From Clostridia bacterium (GTDB lineage: Bacteria > Bacillota > Clostridia > TANB77 > CAG-508): DNA of 64,000 nucleotides. Numbering within the stretch: the stretch's first letter is position 1; each line of letters starts with the position of its first letter. Below the pieces are notes generated by a model, which ran no database searches, was not told the origin of the DNA, and worked only from the letters and a program-made list of their open reading frames with translations. Shown here one piece after another: positions 33,022-54,405 of the stretch. The DNA lies in contig JAFWMA010000005.1 of the NCBI GenBank assembly GCA_017510825.1, positions 1 through 64,000 of the forward strand. The letters run 5' to 3'. The position numbers and the translations under genes are program-made.

Positions 33022-33090
33022 ATAAAATATAGATATCGAAATTACTGAATGAAAAAGATAGAAAGAACAAAAGGAAGGAAAAGTAAAATA

Positions 33091-34392
33091 ATGGAAGAAA
33101 ACAAGGTTCAAAAAACAGCGGAAACCCGCATAACACTACACACACACACCTACACCTACATTTTAAACAATAAAAAAACAAGAGAGAAGTTTAATTTTAG
33201 AAAACAACAATTTAGGCAGGCAGGAATTACATTGGTAGCATTAGTAGTTACGGTAATTGTTCTATTAATTCTAGCCGGAGTAACAATAAGCCTTGCACTA
33301 GGAGGTAATGGAATATTAGATAGAACTCAATATGCATCAAACATGTATGCAAATGCTACAAAAAACGAGATAGCACTATTTGAAAACATAGAACAAATAT
33401 CAGATAAACTAACAGGAACGCTAACTGAATCACAAATAATGGCAATCAACCAAAATACAAATTTGCAAGAAATAAACTATAAACCTGCAGAGATAAATGA
33501 AATAATAACAATACCAGGAGAAAATAATGGAGGGATAGCAGACCAAGAATTTAGCCAAGCAAATTTAGGAACACAAAGTTTGAAATGGTATGTATTAAGT
33601 GCAGATGAGAATGGAGTAAATTTAGTAAGTGAGCCAACCAGTAAAGCTATACAATTTTGTGATGCAGGAGGATATGACAACTGCTTATACTATTTAAAAC
33701 AAATAGTGAAAAAATTATTTATTAATGAAAATAAATTTGGAATTACACCAGATAGAGTACATGCATTAAATTTAAGCGACATAAAAAAAGCAACAGAGGG
33801 AAAAAATGGACAAAACTATAATTGGGATGAAACTTTTATAAAAAATGCATCTTACTATGGAAGTGGAACAAATACATACAACGAAGGAAAAATAGGGAAA
33901 AAGACCTATACAACTGTAAATTTAAAGTATCCTAAAATATATGGAACAAGTGAAGAAGATATACTGATAGATAATTCAATGTATGATGAAGATGTACCTG
34001 AAGATTATAAACCGATAAAAGATGATTTGGCTGGTAGTACTTCACCAACAGCAAGTAAACAAACCGTAAACTATACATATTTGAGCTATCATAATGCAAG
34101 AGATGCTATGATAAATAATTTAGGCATATTTGGAAGCAGTGATATTGGAAAAGAATTATTTAAAGAAAATGGCAAAAATTATTATCTAGCTTCGCGCTCT
34201 ATTTATTCAGACTCATCAAACAGAACAAACTTTTTTCTTAACAATGTGAGTTCTGGATGTTTAAGTAATTATCATGCACTTTGCCTTGGCCAAGGTGGAA
34301 ACAATAGAATTACTTGTTATCTTCGATGTGTTGTTTCTATATCAGGTGCAAGAATTAACATTTCAAATGATGGAACAGTAACTTTAAAATAA
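33091..34392 (+). CDS. Prepilin-like surface protein with variable-type C-terminal domain
   Basis: 433 residues from ATG 33091 (MEENKVQ), chosen because AAGGAAGG precedes it and paralogues begin the same way. After about 45 residues comes QAGITLVALVVTVIVLLILAG, a type IV prepilin-like cleavage and membrane segment, although the usual Glu at +5 is absent. It is followed by NGILDRTQYASNMYANATK. The C-terminal 60 residues contain YYLASRSIYSDSS, CLGQGGNNRITCYLRCVV, a pattern of conserved framework with variable aromatic/Ser/Cys positions seen in DUF6273-type or C-type-lectin-like domains. No pilus assembly genes are nearby. Probably exported and surface-exposed; function unknown. Confidence 0.78.
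   Translation: MEENKVQKTAETRITLHTHTYTYILNNKKTREKFNFRKQQFRQAGITLVALVVTVIVLLILAGVTISLALGGNGILDRTQYASNMYANATKNEIALFENIEQISDKLTGTLTESQIMAINQNTNLQEINYKPAEINEIITIPGENNGGIADQEFSQANLGTQSLKWYVLSADENGVNLVSEPTSKAIQFCDAGGYDNCLYYLKQIVKKLFINENKFGITPDRVHALNLSDIKKATEGKNGQNYNWDETFIKNASYYGSGTNTYNEGKIGKKTYTTVNLKYPKIYGTSEEDILIDNSMYDEDVPEDYKPIKDDLAGSTSPTASKQTVNYTYLSYHNARDAMINNLGIFGSSDIGKELFKENGKNYYLASRSIYSDSSNRTNFFLNNVSSGCLSNYHALCLGQGGNNRITCYLRCVVSISGARINISNDGTVTLK
34231..34350 (+). other. Candidate variable region of the first prepilin-like protein
   Basis: By hand count, A makes up 27 of 110 bases at 34231-34340, clearly below the surrounding gene, and the segment encodes the framework-plus-variable C-terminus. 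It may be a DGR-type variable region, but the signal is weaker than at 38981-39121. Confidence 0.35.
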
Positions 34393-38152: not shown

Positions 38153-38650
38153 GTGCGCCAGTTAAGTGATTAATGTACAGCAGGTGTAAATCCTGTCTAG
38201 TAAGGTCTATCCAACCGCTATTATCGAGATTTTGGAGCCAAAGTCGTGAGATTAGGTTTAAGCGTAAATCAGAGAGTGTTCGAGTCTTAATGCGAAAGCG
38301 TGAAACTATTGAGCCTCGTTAATCTATTAAATAGAAGCTGATACCTTCCATTTGGCAGCAAGCAATAACACACGGACTAGCATAATAACCGATTGAGAAA
38401 ACAAATATTTACACGAAGAAAACTTAAAGAAAAACACGGCAGAGTTAATAGACAGAATGAAATGTTTGAGCTATATATTAAGATAAAATGTAAAGGAGCA
38501 GCATACCTGATAAGGTATGCTGACGACTTTGTGTGTTGTTTTGAAAAAGAAGAAGATGCAATAATTTTTTATGAAGAACTAAAAGATAGATTAAAGAAAT
38601 TTGACCTAGAGCTAGCAGAAGGCAAAAGCAGAATAATACCATTTGGAAAT
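38153..38650 (+). mobile_element. Truncated group II intron (5' ribozyme part plus reverse-transcriptase fragment)
   Basis: GTGCGCC at 38153 is the conserved 5' end of bacterial group II introns. The following 240 bases are structured and richer in G/C than their surroundings (GTAAATCCTGTCTAGTAAGG, AATGCGAAAGCGTGAAACTA), as expected for domain I. The intron-encoded protein is then reduced to a piece around the YADD catalytic motif. The 3' half of the ribozyme (domains V/VI) is not seen, so the intron is dead. Confidence 0.7.
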
Positions 38651-39121
38651 AATAATAGCAATCAAACATGGAATAATGGCGGAGAAAATGCTTCAACCAC
38701 ATCAAACATATATGGAGTATATGATATGAGCGGAGGACTATGGGAAAGAACACTAGCATTCATTGCAAATGGAACAACTAATTTAAATAGATATGGAGCA
38801 AGTATAGCATATAGTAATGTAACAATGAAAACAGTAGGAACAAAATATACAACACCATATTCAAAAGGCACTTCAGATTTACAGCAAAACAACTGGGAAG
38901 CAAATGCAAAAATATATGGAGATGGAGCTTGCGAAACATCAACAGCAGGCACAGGTTCAAATTCATTTAATAAAGACTATTCGCTCTTCCCGGCCACTAG
39001 CGATCCCCTCTTCGAACGTGGAGGTCGTTCTGTGAATGGAGACTCAGCTGGTGTGTTTGCTTTCAGCTACAATAGTGGGAGGAGCCATTATGGCGTTGGT
39101 TTCCGCACGGTGTTGACTTAA
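38393..39121 (+). pseudogene. Chimeric ORF: group II intron RT fragment fused to a surface-protein C-terminus
   Basis: 242 codons from a TTG. The first about 85 read AYLIRYADDFVCCFEKEEDA, RLKKFDLELAEGKSRIIPFG, matching the YxDD region of group II intron reverse transcriptases; motifs before YADD are missing. Directly after PFG the frame changes character: TWNNGGENASTTSNIYGVYD, MSGGLWERTLAF, and a C-terminus with FERGGRSVNGDSAGVFAF and GVGFRTVL. That second part resembles the FGE-sulfatase/C-type-lectin fold used by DGR target proteins, and it lacks its own N-terminus and signal. The junction is probably a deletion that fused an intron to a former prepilin-like gene. No ribosome binding site is evident. 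Confidence 0.6.
38981..39121 (+). other. A-depleted, GC-rich segment: candidate DGR variable region
   Basis: By hand count, 38981-39120 has 75 G+C and 23 A in 140 bases, while the preceding 140 bases (38841-38980) have 49 G+C and 62 A. The segment encodes the last 46 residues, with framework residues RGG, AGVFAF, G and GFR separated by mixed residues. Adenine-directed mutagenesis in DGRs would produce exactly such A loss at the 3' end of a target gene. Confidence 0.5.
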
Positions 39122-39276
39122 GTCTGCCCACTTTAGTTTTTGGTACCTACCGAGTAGCTTAACATAACTTTTTTAGGTGATACTTACTTTTTGAATTAAC
39201 ATAATTAAAAATGCCAATATATACAAAAAAGTTTATTTCTTTATTTCACATGAAGGCGTTTTTAAAGGAATTTACA

Positions 39277-48676: not shown

Positions 48677-49495
48677 ATGATTATTTATCCAAAGACAAGT
48701 GATAGCCTTCAAGGATTTGATGTATTGAAACCTTATGTGGAATATAGCCATGGAACAGAGATTCAAATGTTAAAATGGGAAAAACTAGAATATTTAGATG
48801 AGATTATTGATAAAATGATAAGTGAGGTTCCTACGATTGAAGAAATAACTGTACATCCACCTTTGACAGAAGAGTATAATTTTGAAGTTCTTTCATATAA
48901 AAACTTTGATGAAGAAATTAATAGGATAAAATTATTAATTGAATTATCGGAAAAATATAGTATAAGAGTAAATTTACTATATCATACTAGGTGGGATTAT
49001 AATTGTTGGATGAGTAGTGGTGGAGTAAATCGAATGACTCAATTGGTTGAACTTATTGAAAATACAAATATTAAAATTTTAGTTGAAAATATTTATTCAA
49101 TGGTTGATAAGGAAGATTCAACAGTTTTAAAACTCGCTAGGAAAATTGATAGCGAAAATTTCAAAGTTTGTTTAGATATATGTCATTTACACTGTCAGGC
49201 AAATGTTTTTAAATTAGGCTTTGATGAGTTTTTGAGTAATTATTTAAATAAGGATGATTGTGAAAAATATGTTTATCAAATTCATTTTGCTAGTACATTA
49301 AAAAATGATGGATATGTTGAAAAAGCAACACATGGAAGGAAACATGATACTATGGAAAGTTTTGAAGAAGATTATAAGATTCTAAGAGATTATGGCATGG
49401 AAAATAGGATAATAGTTCCTGAAATTTCAGAAGATGATTATTCAATTAGAGTTGATCAGATTGCTGAAATAAAAATGCTTAAAAGGATGTGTTAA
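48677..49495 (+). CDS. Xylose-isomerase-like TIM-barrel protein (sugar phosphate isomerase/epimerase type)
   Basis: 272 residues; AGAGGAGAG precedes the ATG, 17 bases after the zeta-like gene, so probably the last gene of that operon. The superfamily's metal ligands are visible in order: LVENIYS (Glu), VCLDICHLH (Asp/His), QIHFAS (His) and VPEIS (Glu). Members include sugar epimerases and endonuclease IV-like enzymes. Its place after two kinases suggested to act on nucleotide sugars is suggestive but not proof of a functional link. Confidence 0.75.
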   Translation: MIIYPKTSDSLQGFDVLKPYVEYSHGTEIQMLKWEKLEYLDEIIDKMISEVPTIEEITVHPPLTEEYNFEVLSYKNFDEEINRIKLLIELSEKYSIRVNLLYHTRWDYNCWMSSGGVNRMTQLVELIENTNIKILVENIYSMVDKEDSTVLKLARKIDSENFKVCLDICHLHCQANVFKLGFDEFLSNYLNKDDCEKYVYQIHFASTLKNDGYVEKATHGRKHDTMESFEEDYKILRDYGMENRIIVPEISEDDYSIRVDQIAEIKMLKRMC

Positions 49496-49584
49496 ATTTT
49501 GTGATAAAAGGAACGGGTTGTTTGATTGTATTTTGTTCAATAGGTATGAGAGAATTCAAAGGAAAAAAGGAGAATGGAAAAGAG

Positions 49585-50769
49585 ATGGAAGAAAATAAAA
49601 ACATTAAAATGGCTGAAAGCTTTGTGGGAGTACAAACACACACTAGTATTTTAAACAACCAAAATCTAAAAATAAAAAAAACAGGAACAATAATTGCAGA
49701 GGAGCACAGTGTGATTTATTCAAAGCAATATTTACAACAAGCAGGAATTACATTGGTTGCACTTGTGGTCACAATAATTGTGCTTTTAATATTGGCAGGA
49801 GTAACAATAAGTTTAGCAATGAATGATAATGGAGTAATGGACAAGGCTCAGTTTGCATCAAATATGTATGCAAATGCAACAAAAGATGAAAGAGTAATGC
49901 TTGAGGAAATGGAAGATTCGATAATAGATTTATCAGATTCAAGTGGAATAGTAATAAAAGATTCAGATGAAAATAAGATAAATTTATCTCAAATTGCAAA
50001 CTATTATGGAAAATATGTAAACTATAATGGAACAACAGACAAGTACCAGCTATTTTATGTGGATGTGGCAGGAAAATATAGTAATGGAGAACCACGAGTG
50101 TGGTTGCAGTACAAAACATATACAGCTTTACCTGGAGCGTTAGGAAATCAATATAATTCAAGTAGAGATGATGAAATAATAAGTAATGAAGAATCAATAA
50201 TGTGGCAAATAAATCCAGATTTAGATAATAAATATGGAGTAATAATAAGAGGATTAAGTAGTTGGCAAAGCAATGTAAAGGAAGTAGCATATTTAAGTAA
50301 TCCAGAAAATTGGAATGATACATATTTAGCAGAAGGAGATTCAGAAAAAGGAGGATATGCAATAGGAGGAGTAAGTGCAGAGCTATTCTGTGATTCCTAT
50401 AATCAAGCAAGAGGTATAACTGATAGTATAGCGAAAGATTATTTTGAAGCAAAAGCATTCAAAAAAAATAGTAATTATGGATATTTATACAAGCCTGGAT
50501 ATGAGAATGCAGGCACTAAAGATGGAGATTATGGGTCATATACAGATAGTGCAAGTTATCCAATTCAAACAAGTATCTGTAGTGGTATATATAGGTTTAG
50601 TAATAGTAATTCACAATGCCCGTGGCTTTCTTCGATGTCGCCTGAAGCTGCTAACCGTGTGTGCTTTGTGTATGGTAGTGCTTTGAATAATGGAAATGGA
50701 GCTTATGCATATGGAGTGCGTCCAGCAGTTTCTTTACCAACTGATATTGAAATTCAGCTCATAAATTAG
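49585..50769 (+). CDS. Prepilin-like surface protein with variable-type C-terminal domain
   Basis: 394 residues from ATG 49585, after AAAAAAGGAGA; the longer frame from 49489 overlaps the TIM-barrel gene and has no site. N-terminus MEENKNIKMAESFVGV, then QAGITLVALVVTIIVLLILAG at about 50-70 and NGVMDKAQFASNMYANATK. The C-terminus contains GYLYKPGYENAG, CPWLSSMSPEAANRVCFVYG and GAYAYGVRPAVSLPTDI, the (S/G)xRPxVSL ending of DUF6273-type domains. Its upstream 70 bases are nearly identical to those of the gene at 53137. Confidence 0.8.
   Translation: MEENKNIKMAESFVGVQTHTSILNNQNLKIKKTGTIIAEEHSVIYSKQYLQQAGITLVALVVTIIVLLILAGVTISLAMNDNGVMDKAQFASNMYANATKDERVMLEEMEDSIIDLSDSSGIVIKDSDENKINLSQIANYYGKYVNYNGTTDKYQLFYVDVAGKYSNGEPRVWLQYKTYTALPGALGNQYNSSRDDEIISNEESIMWQINPDLDNKYGVIIRGLSSWQSNVKEVAYLSNPENWNDTYLAEGDSEKGGYAIGGVSAELFCDSYNQARGITDSIAKDYFEAKAFKKNSNYGYLYKPGYENAGTKDGDYGSYTDSASYPIQTSICSGIYRFSNSNSQCPWLSSMSPEAANRVCFVYGSALNNGNGAYAYGVRPAVSLPTDIEIQLIN
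50611..50730 (+). other. A-poor segment: second candidate variable region
   Basis: At 50611-50690, by hand count, 14 of 80 bases are A and 38 are G+C, against an A-rich gene body. The segment codes for the C-terminal CPWLSSMSPEAANRVCFVYG stretch just before the YGVRPAVSL framework. Confidence 0.4.
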
Positions 50770-53136: not shown

Positions 53137-54405
53137 ATGGAAAGAGATAGAAGTATTAAAGTAGTTGAAATCCTTGTGGGAGTACATACAAGTATTTTAA
53201 ATAACAAAAAGGAAAAATTAAAACAGGCTGAAATAACAATTGTAGATAAATACAATATGCTTCATTCAAAGAAATACCTACAACAAGCCGGTATAACATT
53301 AGTGGCACTTGTAGTTACAGTGATAGTGCTTTTAATATTGGCAGGTGTAACAATAAGTCTAGCACTAAATGATAATGGAGTAATGGACAAGGCGCAACTT
53401 GCATCAAATATATATGCAAATGCAACAAAGGATGAAGCAAAAATGGTGGATCAAATTGAGGGAGATGTGGATAATTTAACTGCTGGATTTATAGCTTTAA
53501 AATCATTAAAAATTGGTGATATAAATTTAAAAACCCTATCAAAAGAGGAATTCGAAAGTTTATATGGACTTGAAACTGATTATAAATCAAAATTGCATCC
53601 AAACATAAAATGGCAGTTGTTTTATGCAGATGAAGAAAATATATACATAATTGCAAGTGATTACGTTCCAAATTCTGAACTGCCATGTGATGGAGTTACA
53701 ATAGGAAATCAAACTTTTAGCTCTACTGATTTAATGAAGTCAACAAGTACGGAGTATCAATGGTCAACATACTGTGCGATGTTTGCTAGTGACAATAGTT
53801 ATAATGATTATGTAATGACAGAGGAAAGTGAATATAGAAAAGGTTCTCAATCATGCTTTTTAAAGGAAGGAGATGCAAATAGAAATCTGCTAGTTAGTAA
53901 ATACTTAAAATGGGTAGATAATTATCCAGATAGTACAAATATAAATATTAGTGTTGTAGCATATATGATGGATAAAGAAAAATGGAAGAGTTTTGCTGAT
54001 GGGATAGGTGGAGCATATGCTATTGGTGGTCCTACATTAGAGATGTTTGTAAAATCATATAATGAAGCAAATGTGAGTACACATACAAATAAACTAATTG
54101 GGTATGATGATGTGGAAGATACAGGAAAATGGAATGTTAATGGGTATGCGGAAAAAACAGAAAAGAATACTGGATGGTTATTTTATGGAACTTATGGTGA
54201 TTTACCTACAAGTAGTAATAATGATATGTGGGTAAGAAAATCTTCTATAAAAGCATGTGGATATTGGCTAGCATCCCCATCATCATGGACTTCTGATAGG
54301 GGAATAATAATATATTTTGGAGGATGTGTTTATTCTAATTATGTACATTCTTATGGCTATGGATTCAGACCGTTAGTTGTTATACCAAAGTCTATGATAA
54401 AATAG
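53137..54405 (+). CDS. Prepilin-like surface protein with variable-type C-terminal domain
   Basis: 422 residues; AAAAAAGGAG precedes the ATG by about 15 bases, in the same context as the gene at 49585. MERDRSIKVVEILVGVHTSI, then QAGITLVALVVTVIVLLILAG at about 50-70 and NGVMDKAQLASNIYANATK. The C-terminus GGAYAIGGPTLEMFVKSYNE, YWLASPSSWTSDRGI and SYGYGFRPLVVIPK matches the DUF6273-type framework. The two neighbours at 49585 and 53137 are close paralogues through the N-terminal 120 residues and then diverge, so the C-terminal part is the variable module. Confidence 0.8.
   Translation: MERDRSIKVVEILVGVHTSILNNKKEKLKQAEITIVDKYNMLHSKKYLQQAGITLVALVVTVIVLLILAGVTISLALNDNGVMDKAQLASNIYANATKDEAKMVDQIEGDVDNLTAGFIALKSLKIGDINLKTLSKEEFESLYGLETDYKSKLHPNIKWQLFYADEENIYIIASDYVPNSELPCDGVTIGNQTFSSTDLMKSTSTEYQWSTYCAMFASDNSYNDYVMTEESEYRKGSQSCFLKEGDANRNLLVSKYLKWVDNYPDSTNINISVVAYMMDKEKWKSFADGIGGAYAIGGPTLEMFVKSYNEANVSTHTNKLIGYDDVEDTGKWNVNGYAEKTEKNTGWLFYGTYGDLPTSSNNDMWVRKSSIKACGYWLASPSSWTSDRGIIIYFGGCVYSNYVHSYGYGFRPLVVIPKSMIK

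Follow-up and report, generated by a model that had tools for sequence, protein, structure and literature searches.

The window, by which we mean the whole 64-kb stretch of DNA analysed, carries on its plus strand a chimeric ORF of 219 aa, open from an ATG at 38462 to 39121, whose front half comes from a broken group II intron and whose end comes from a prepilin/FGE-like DGR target. The 5' part of the intron RNA lies at 38153..38401 on the same strand (Rfam RF02005 at 38187-38401, 58.2 bits); no other intron family reached its gathering score in the 64-kb window. The intron probably begins with GTGCGCC at 38153, a start read off the sequence in the light of the group II intron 5'-end consensus. 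Two plus-strand pieces of the intron RT follow in two frames. The first, residues about 54-69 at 38415..38462, was recognised by eye in a three-frame translation compared with P0005. The second, residues about 230-289 with the YADD motif, occupies 38465..38644 in frame with the variable region (VR) discussed below, and was identified by TIGR04416 (E = 1.4e-9) and by alignment with P0005, P0018 and P0023. The remnant resembles bacterial group II introns (TIGR04416/RF02005) in its 5' RNA and in residues 230-289, which align with P0005 at 82% identity, but differs from them in lacking RT residues 1-53, 70-229 and those beyond about 290, in having its RT pieces in two frames, and in lacking the 3' part of the intron, for which we found no candidate. 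The window intron thus has no intact RT or maturase, most of the protein being missing. Searching 31 genus genomes for the intron RT gave four matches, whose identity of 32-43% was too low for them to reveal how the DNA runs at the fusion.

Downstream of the intron remnant, the target-derived part of the ORF comprises the last ~158 codons of the target, VR included. Its non-variable portion, part of the C-terminal domain, lies at 38645..38980 on the plus strand and was recognised by protein alignment and by its 74% DNA identity to a target on contig C20 of the same genome. The C20 target gene is intact, encodes 577 aa beginning with a prepilin-like N-terminus, and ends in a second VR of the same class. 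About 418 target codons are missing from the window gene, including the prepilin-like N-terminus, and no export signal was found in the product of the chimeric ORF. The fusion point, at 38645..38656 on the plus strand, reads GGAAATAATAAT in the window and GGATATAATAAT in C20, where an intact intron RT reads G-N-N-N/S. Because the intact RT (PFGNN(N/D/G)S) and the intact target (GYNN.N) resemble each other at the junction, the fusion is likely to have been formed by a deletion at short imperfect homology. The preliminary description had called this a chimeric surface ORF. It is chimeric, and more strongly so than was meant, since its front half is a broken group II intron; the surface part does not stand, as the prepilin-like N-terminus is missing, and a displayed surface protein from this ORF is unlikely.

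The 3' end of the chimeric ORF is strikingly poor in A. The 141 bases at 38981-39121 hold 24 A and 75 G+C, whereas the corresponding figures for the 140 bases upstream of 38981 are 62 and 49; these counts reproduce those made earlier by hand, apart from one base (23 A in 140). Among 63,860 windows of 141 bases across the 64-kb stretch, 25 have 24 A or fewer, and 15 of these are also at least as G+C-rich, with all starts in the single 500-base bin that contains the site (38500-38999). When 47 codons were drawn randomly from plus-strand ORFs of the window, a count as low as 24 A was never reached in 200,000 draws, the lowest being 34. When the 46 residues encoded here were recoded 20,000 times with the codon usage of the window, the versions contained 37.9 A on average and at least 25, compared with 22 observed. 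Since recoding was never as A-poor as the observed sequence, amino-acid content does not explain the A-depletion. The A fraction at the ORF end (0.17) is the lowest of the 31 window ORFs compared, the next being 0.25 for the ORF at 49489-50769. As first described, the reading frame stays open through the A-poor region, up to a TAA at 39119-39121.

Depletion of A is also evident at silent sites. In the window domain, 42/51 four-fold degenerate codons end in A upstream of the VR versus 3/27 inside it (p = 8e-10), and in the C20 target the corresponding counts are 166/215 and 3/26. The VRs of five relatives with a located template show the same avoidance (p = 5e-8 to 2e-14), while two prepilin-like control genes do not (p = 0.14 and 1). 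A fairer control than these two genes is provided by genus homologues of 494-510 aa whose ends carry the same RGG...(F/Y)R pattern. A-avoidance is absent from all 16 of them (p >= 0.1) and also from a 541-aa homologue of the same domain, whereas nine other relatives in the same comparison avoid A in the VR segment (p <= 4e-4). This comparison was given 28 loci, of which 26 yielded a row (L163 and L173 gave none). As A-neutral homologues and A-avoiding relatives share the same domain, the silent-site bias supports reading the segment as a VR. From how DGRs work, we infer that framework codons of the VR have been purged of A because an A in the template is mutable. The 494-510-aa proteins are the non-variable counterpart of the DGR targets. 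They occur in 16 genus genomes (L112, L154, L156-L162, L164-L167 and L169-L171); none was found in the window's own genome by a TR/VR profile search of the 83.6%-complete draft.

Based upon A content, silent-site A-avoidance and a profile match to TR/VR peptides, we place the VR at 38981..39134 on the plus strand, where it encodes the last 46 residues and continues through the stop codon and 13 bases beyond; its 5' limit is approximate. The segment of 38981..39121 proposed earlier was therefore A-poor as claimed but too short, as the signature continues beyond the stop codon as far as about 39134. The 3' end was placed by comparison with the VRs of relatives, for which eight loci were put in and all but L094 yielded a row. 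The window VR (on contig C11), the C20 VR and five relatives' VRs all end in CACTTT, found in the window at 39129..39134 on the plus strand, while the corresponding end in seven relatives' templates is CACTT(C/A)GATAC. A sixth VR, the distant VR of L044 (L044b), is an exception and ends in TTACTTTGATACGC. The CACTTT at 39129-39134 thus indicates that the VR reaches about 39134. A 40-position TR/VR profile matches the ORF end, which in the window gene reads RGGRSVNGDSAGVFAFSYNSGRSHYGVGFRTVL, comparable to RGGSWDNGASAGVFAWCGYDGGAYYYRGFRPVL and RGGYCDDGSGAGVFLSGYGSGGGGSIYSFRVVL in the same-genus cassettes L044 and L042, respectively. The VR occupies the 3' end of its gene, which there encodes a CLec/FGE-like domain, an assignment drawn from this profile and from homologue matches: neither the window ORF nor the C20 target itself matches Pfam FGE, but among 40 homologues there are 12 with a match to FGE-sulfatase and 35 with one to the N_methyl motif (E <= 1). 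A search of solved structures returned nothing below E = 0.18, and the predicted fold (mean pLDDT 51.2) was not relied on.

The C20 paralogue allows the variability of the segment to be compared with its surroundings. Over 38 codons, with the template of a sister species (G173) standing in for the missing one, C11 and C20 differ in 11 of the 14 codons that have A as first or second base in the G173 template, and in 4 of 24 elsewhere (p = 3e-4). Counted by base, differences affect 17/32 template-A positions and 16/82 others (p = 1e-3). Of the differences between the two copies, 39/83 upstream and 10/41 in the VR fall at third positions (p = 0.019), while the ratio of changed to silent codons did not differ significantly between the VR and upstream sequence (p = 0.32). 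Across 40 target homologues, mean column entropy is 1.82 bits in the VR versus 1.01 over residues 120-544, and the last 42 residues contain 13 of the 25 positions that vary most. One further sequence, P0121, is 95% identical to the C20 target but is a mosaic of a C20-like front and a P0123-like C-terminal end on a contig of 1,883 bases; either targets have exchanged their VR-bearing ends or this short contig is misassembled, and P0121 was not counted as strain evidence for that reason. On C20 itself (L006 252-641 and 2866-4731), a truncated start copy of a LepA-like GTPase gene, named by eye, precedes the full gene, and the two are separated by a prepilin-like ORF.

TR/VR/RT cassettes with VRs of this class occur in related genomes. 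We scanned 14 loci around DGR-like RTs in relatives, together with the C4 locus of the window's own genome, for template-VR pairs obeying the A rule, and found a credible pair in 11 of the 15, with 15-28 A-differences and 0-2 others; the low count of other differences is partly by construction, as the scan reports only pairs with at most two other mismatches in 60 bases. The L041 pair was found in two pieces. Low-complexity or palindromic hits in L043, L050 and L053 were discarded, and L007, L048, L049 and L051 gave no credible pair. Nine of the 11 targets with pairs have a prepilin-like N-terminus; that of L043 does not, and that of L047 is cut by a contig end. All five relatives' RTs that we looked at (L040, L042, L044, L050 and L011) have YMDD and the SQ motif, which marks DGR RTs according to PMC3521204. 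Four cassettes of the same genus or family, L042 (G090), L044 (G173), L050 (G194) and L053 (G020), are like the window in their VR class, RGG...AG.F...FR.VL, and in a VR that extends past the stop codon, and their targets are prepilin-like, with the RT motifs checked for L042, L044 and L050. Unlike the window, each has a template about 280-315 bases from the VR. No match to the VR expression was found in loci L054-L057. Counting the own genome and A-neutral homologues, the TR/VR profile has matches in 66 of 195 family genomes and 26 of 31 genus genomes. At the orthologous ABC gene, G135 has a prepilin-like ORF, G213 has none, and the G195 contig starts about 1 kb upstream; the profile has no match in G213, and in G195 and G135 it hits other contigs only.

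Taken together, the A-avoidance, the VR-type end, the A-codon-specific differences from C20 and the TR/VR/RT cassettes in the genus bear out the initial proposal of a DGR-type VR at the 3' end of an FGE/C-type-lectin-like domain, and 38981-39134 is very probably a DGR variable region.

The second half of that proposal, diversification by an RT and template located elsewhere, found no support in the assembled sequence. The own genome (G000) is a 1.43-Mb draft in 24 contigs, 83.6% complete. No template for the window VR was found in it by DNA search (E <= 10), by a nine-row TR/VR profile (E <= 10), or by the template-type 3' end pattern CACTTNGATACRCA with up to one mismatch. An A-tolerant comparison with 183 sequences likewise gave no template for the C11 or the C20 VR, the best non-trivial template of a relative having 30 non-A mismatches to the window VR in 100 bases. 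As a positive control for this comparison, the VR of C4 recovered templates in three other genera (G087, G152 and G097), from which it differs, over 100 bases, at 22-23 A positions and at 2-3 others. The expected second copy differing only at template A was thus found neither in the own genome, at 83.6% completeness, nor among the 183 sequences. When the VR DNA was searched in 195 family genomes, the own genome was the sole match. A pattern scan of viral contigs returned 13 stretches, none of them a template, and P0122 has no relative in viral contigs.

The own genome contains two RVT_1 matches (E <= 0.01), one being the window intron fragment and the other the RT on C4. The latter has the SQ motif (LGNYTSQ) but stops just before YxDD, which is retained in a 97%-identical relative in G087. 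C4 also encodes a probable Avd protein (bAvd E = 2.6e-20, the single match in the own genome; NCBIfam Avd score 77.9 against a cut-off of 80), and its target has an FGE domain (Pfam E = 1.9e-8). A DGR-type RT and a probable accessory protein, of the kinds named in the preliminary description, therefore exist in this genome, but the RT is cut before YxDD and no template was found within the 19.9-kb C4 stretch. The C4 cassette (L007) is like the window in having an A-poor end (0.16) on an FGE-like target, with silent-site A at 28/97 upstream versus 0/20 in the VR (p = 0.003). It is unlike the window in VR class, in its truncated RT, and in having templates only in the genomes of other genera. 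Thus, C4 is a broken DGR cassette of another VR class. The cassette (L007 8238-10305) lies near MobV-like and recombinase-like ORFs, named by eye. RTs near-identical to that of C4 occur with templates in three other genera, and matches to it are found in 112 of 195 family genomes (E <= 1e-5), a count that includes the own genome and possibly other kinds of RT.

We put the probability at about three in four that the window holds a DGR variable region left in a gene whose front is a broken group II intron, and that is likely no longer displayed or rewritten. Because template-VR pairs in relatives indicate such copying, we infer that an ancestral DGR would have copied a template RNA with errors at A and written the cDNA over the VR segment. 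A group II intron may then have inserted in or upstream of the target gene, and deletions would have removed most of the intron RT, the intron 3' part and about 418 target codons, the last deletion presumably at short imperfect homology. The template and RT of this VR class would either have disappeared or be located in the portion of the genome that is not assembled. This reading has two limits: adherence to the A-only rule is judged from the stand-in template of a relative, and the loss from an 83.6%-complete draft. Also weighing against it are the 16/82 positions outside template A at which C11 and C20 differ, and the similar ratio of changed to silent codons in the VR and upstream.

The best-surviving alternative, though an unlikely one, is that a template and RT in unassembled parts of the genome continue to rewrite the VR in trans, given that homing acts on DNA and would not need the whole gene. 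The genome is only 83.6% complete, the frame, framework residues and 3' end of the VR are intact, and trans-acting DGRs on remote targets are reported in PMC10907252 and PMC4891356. Yet the assembled part yielded no template by DNA, profile or 3'-end pattern, the one Avd match lies at C4, and the sole DGR-type RT is truncated and belongs to a cassette of another VR class. The intact VR frame and framework residues fit recent truncation as well as continuing use. Should there be such a template, DGR mutagenesis could be read in this truncated gene free of selection on the product. That a DGR is rewriting in trans the tail of an undisplayed gene, so that this decapitated gene serves as a neutral recorder of raw DGR mutagenesis, is more doubtful still.

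It is far less probable that the segment is not a DGR product at all, and instead became A-poor and G+C-richer through transfer or selection on the domain. No template was found and some C20 differences fall outside template-A positions, but 17 genus homologues of the same domain lack the silent-site bias while nine others have it, and the same bias marks the five relatives with a located template. Equally improbable is a working fusion protein of RT fragment and variable domain: the frame is open from ATG 38462 to 39121 and other contigs are predicted to encode this 219-aa product as well (cluster P0001), but only RT residues about 230-289 are left, an export signal is absent and about 418 target codons are gone. 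Assembly artefact, conceivable in a draft of 24 contigs, is hardly credible, since the chimera also occurs outside its own contig, in cluster P0001 (3 member sequences; 12 contigs, a count that belongs either to the representative or to the cluster), which is 100% identical across the fusion and whose longest contig (107,910 bases) exceeds our own (77,811 bases).

Retention of a VR in the relic gene favoured here has a precedent. In Treponema denticola, orphan DGR targets, some of them truncated, persist in isolates that lack TR and RT, as described in PMC4891356, and thus this kind of element is already known. The TvpA-type targets described there are, as here, FGE-type with a 3'-end VR, and outlast their TR and RT. 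The window differs in the prepilin-like N-terminus of the intact homologue and in the group II intron remnant to which the truncated copy is joined; in addition, unlike in T. denticola, no isolate with a template is known for the window VR. What is particular here is that the target is prepilin-like, that it is fused to a second dead retroelement, and that the VR was detected without a template. In the library searched we found no paper combining DGRs with N-terminal methylation, which does not establish prepilin-type DGR targets as unreported.

A DGR VR can thus be recognised without its template, by silent-site A-avoidance with same-domain homologues as a negative control. The importance of this lies in the remote targets that are overlooked when a survey requires TR, VR and RT to occur together, a point that Roux et al. 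make of their own survey (PMC8144416). The own genome also presents a small case of apparent DGR loss, with two same-class VRs that lack a template and one cassette that has neither a template nor the catalytic end of its RT.

Other prepilin-like ORFs in the window also have VR-like ends. The ORF at 49489-50769 has an A-poor part at about 50609-50748, with silent-site A at 8/28 versus 87/121 (p = 4e-5), and its end is possibly an older, decaying VR of another class. The ORFs at 33049-34392 and 53137-54405 have DGR-target-like ends (LRCVVSI and GFRPLVVIP) in which A-avoidance is not significant (p = 0.075 and 0.65). Templates for these three ends were searched for and none was found. The prepilin-like N-terminus has 37 matches in the own genome (E <= 0.1), five of them in the window, a large family for a 1.4-Mb draft.
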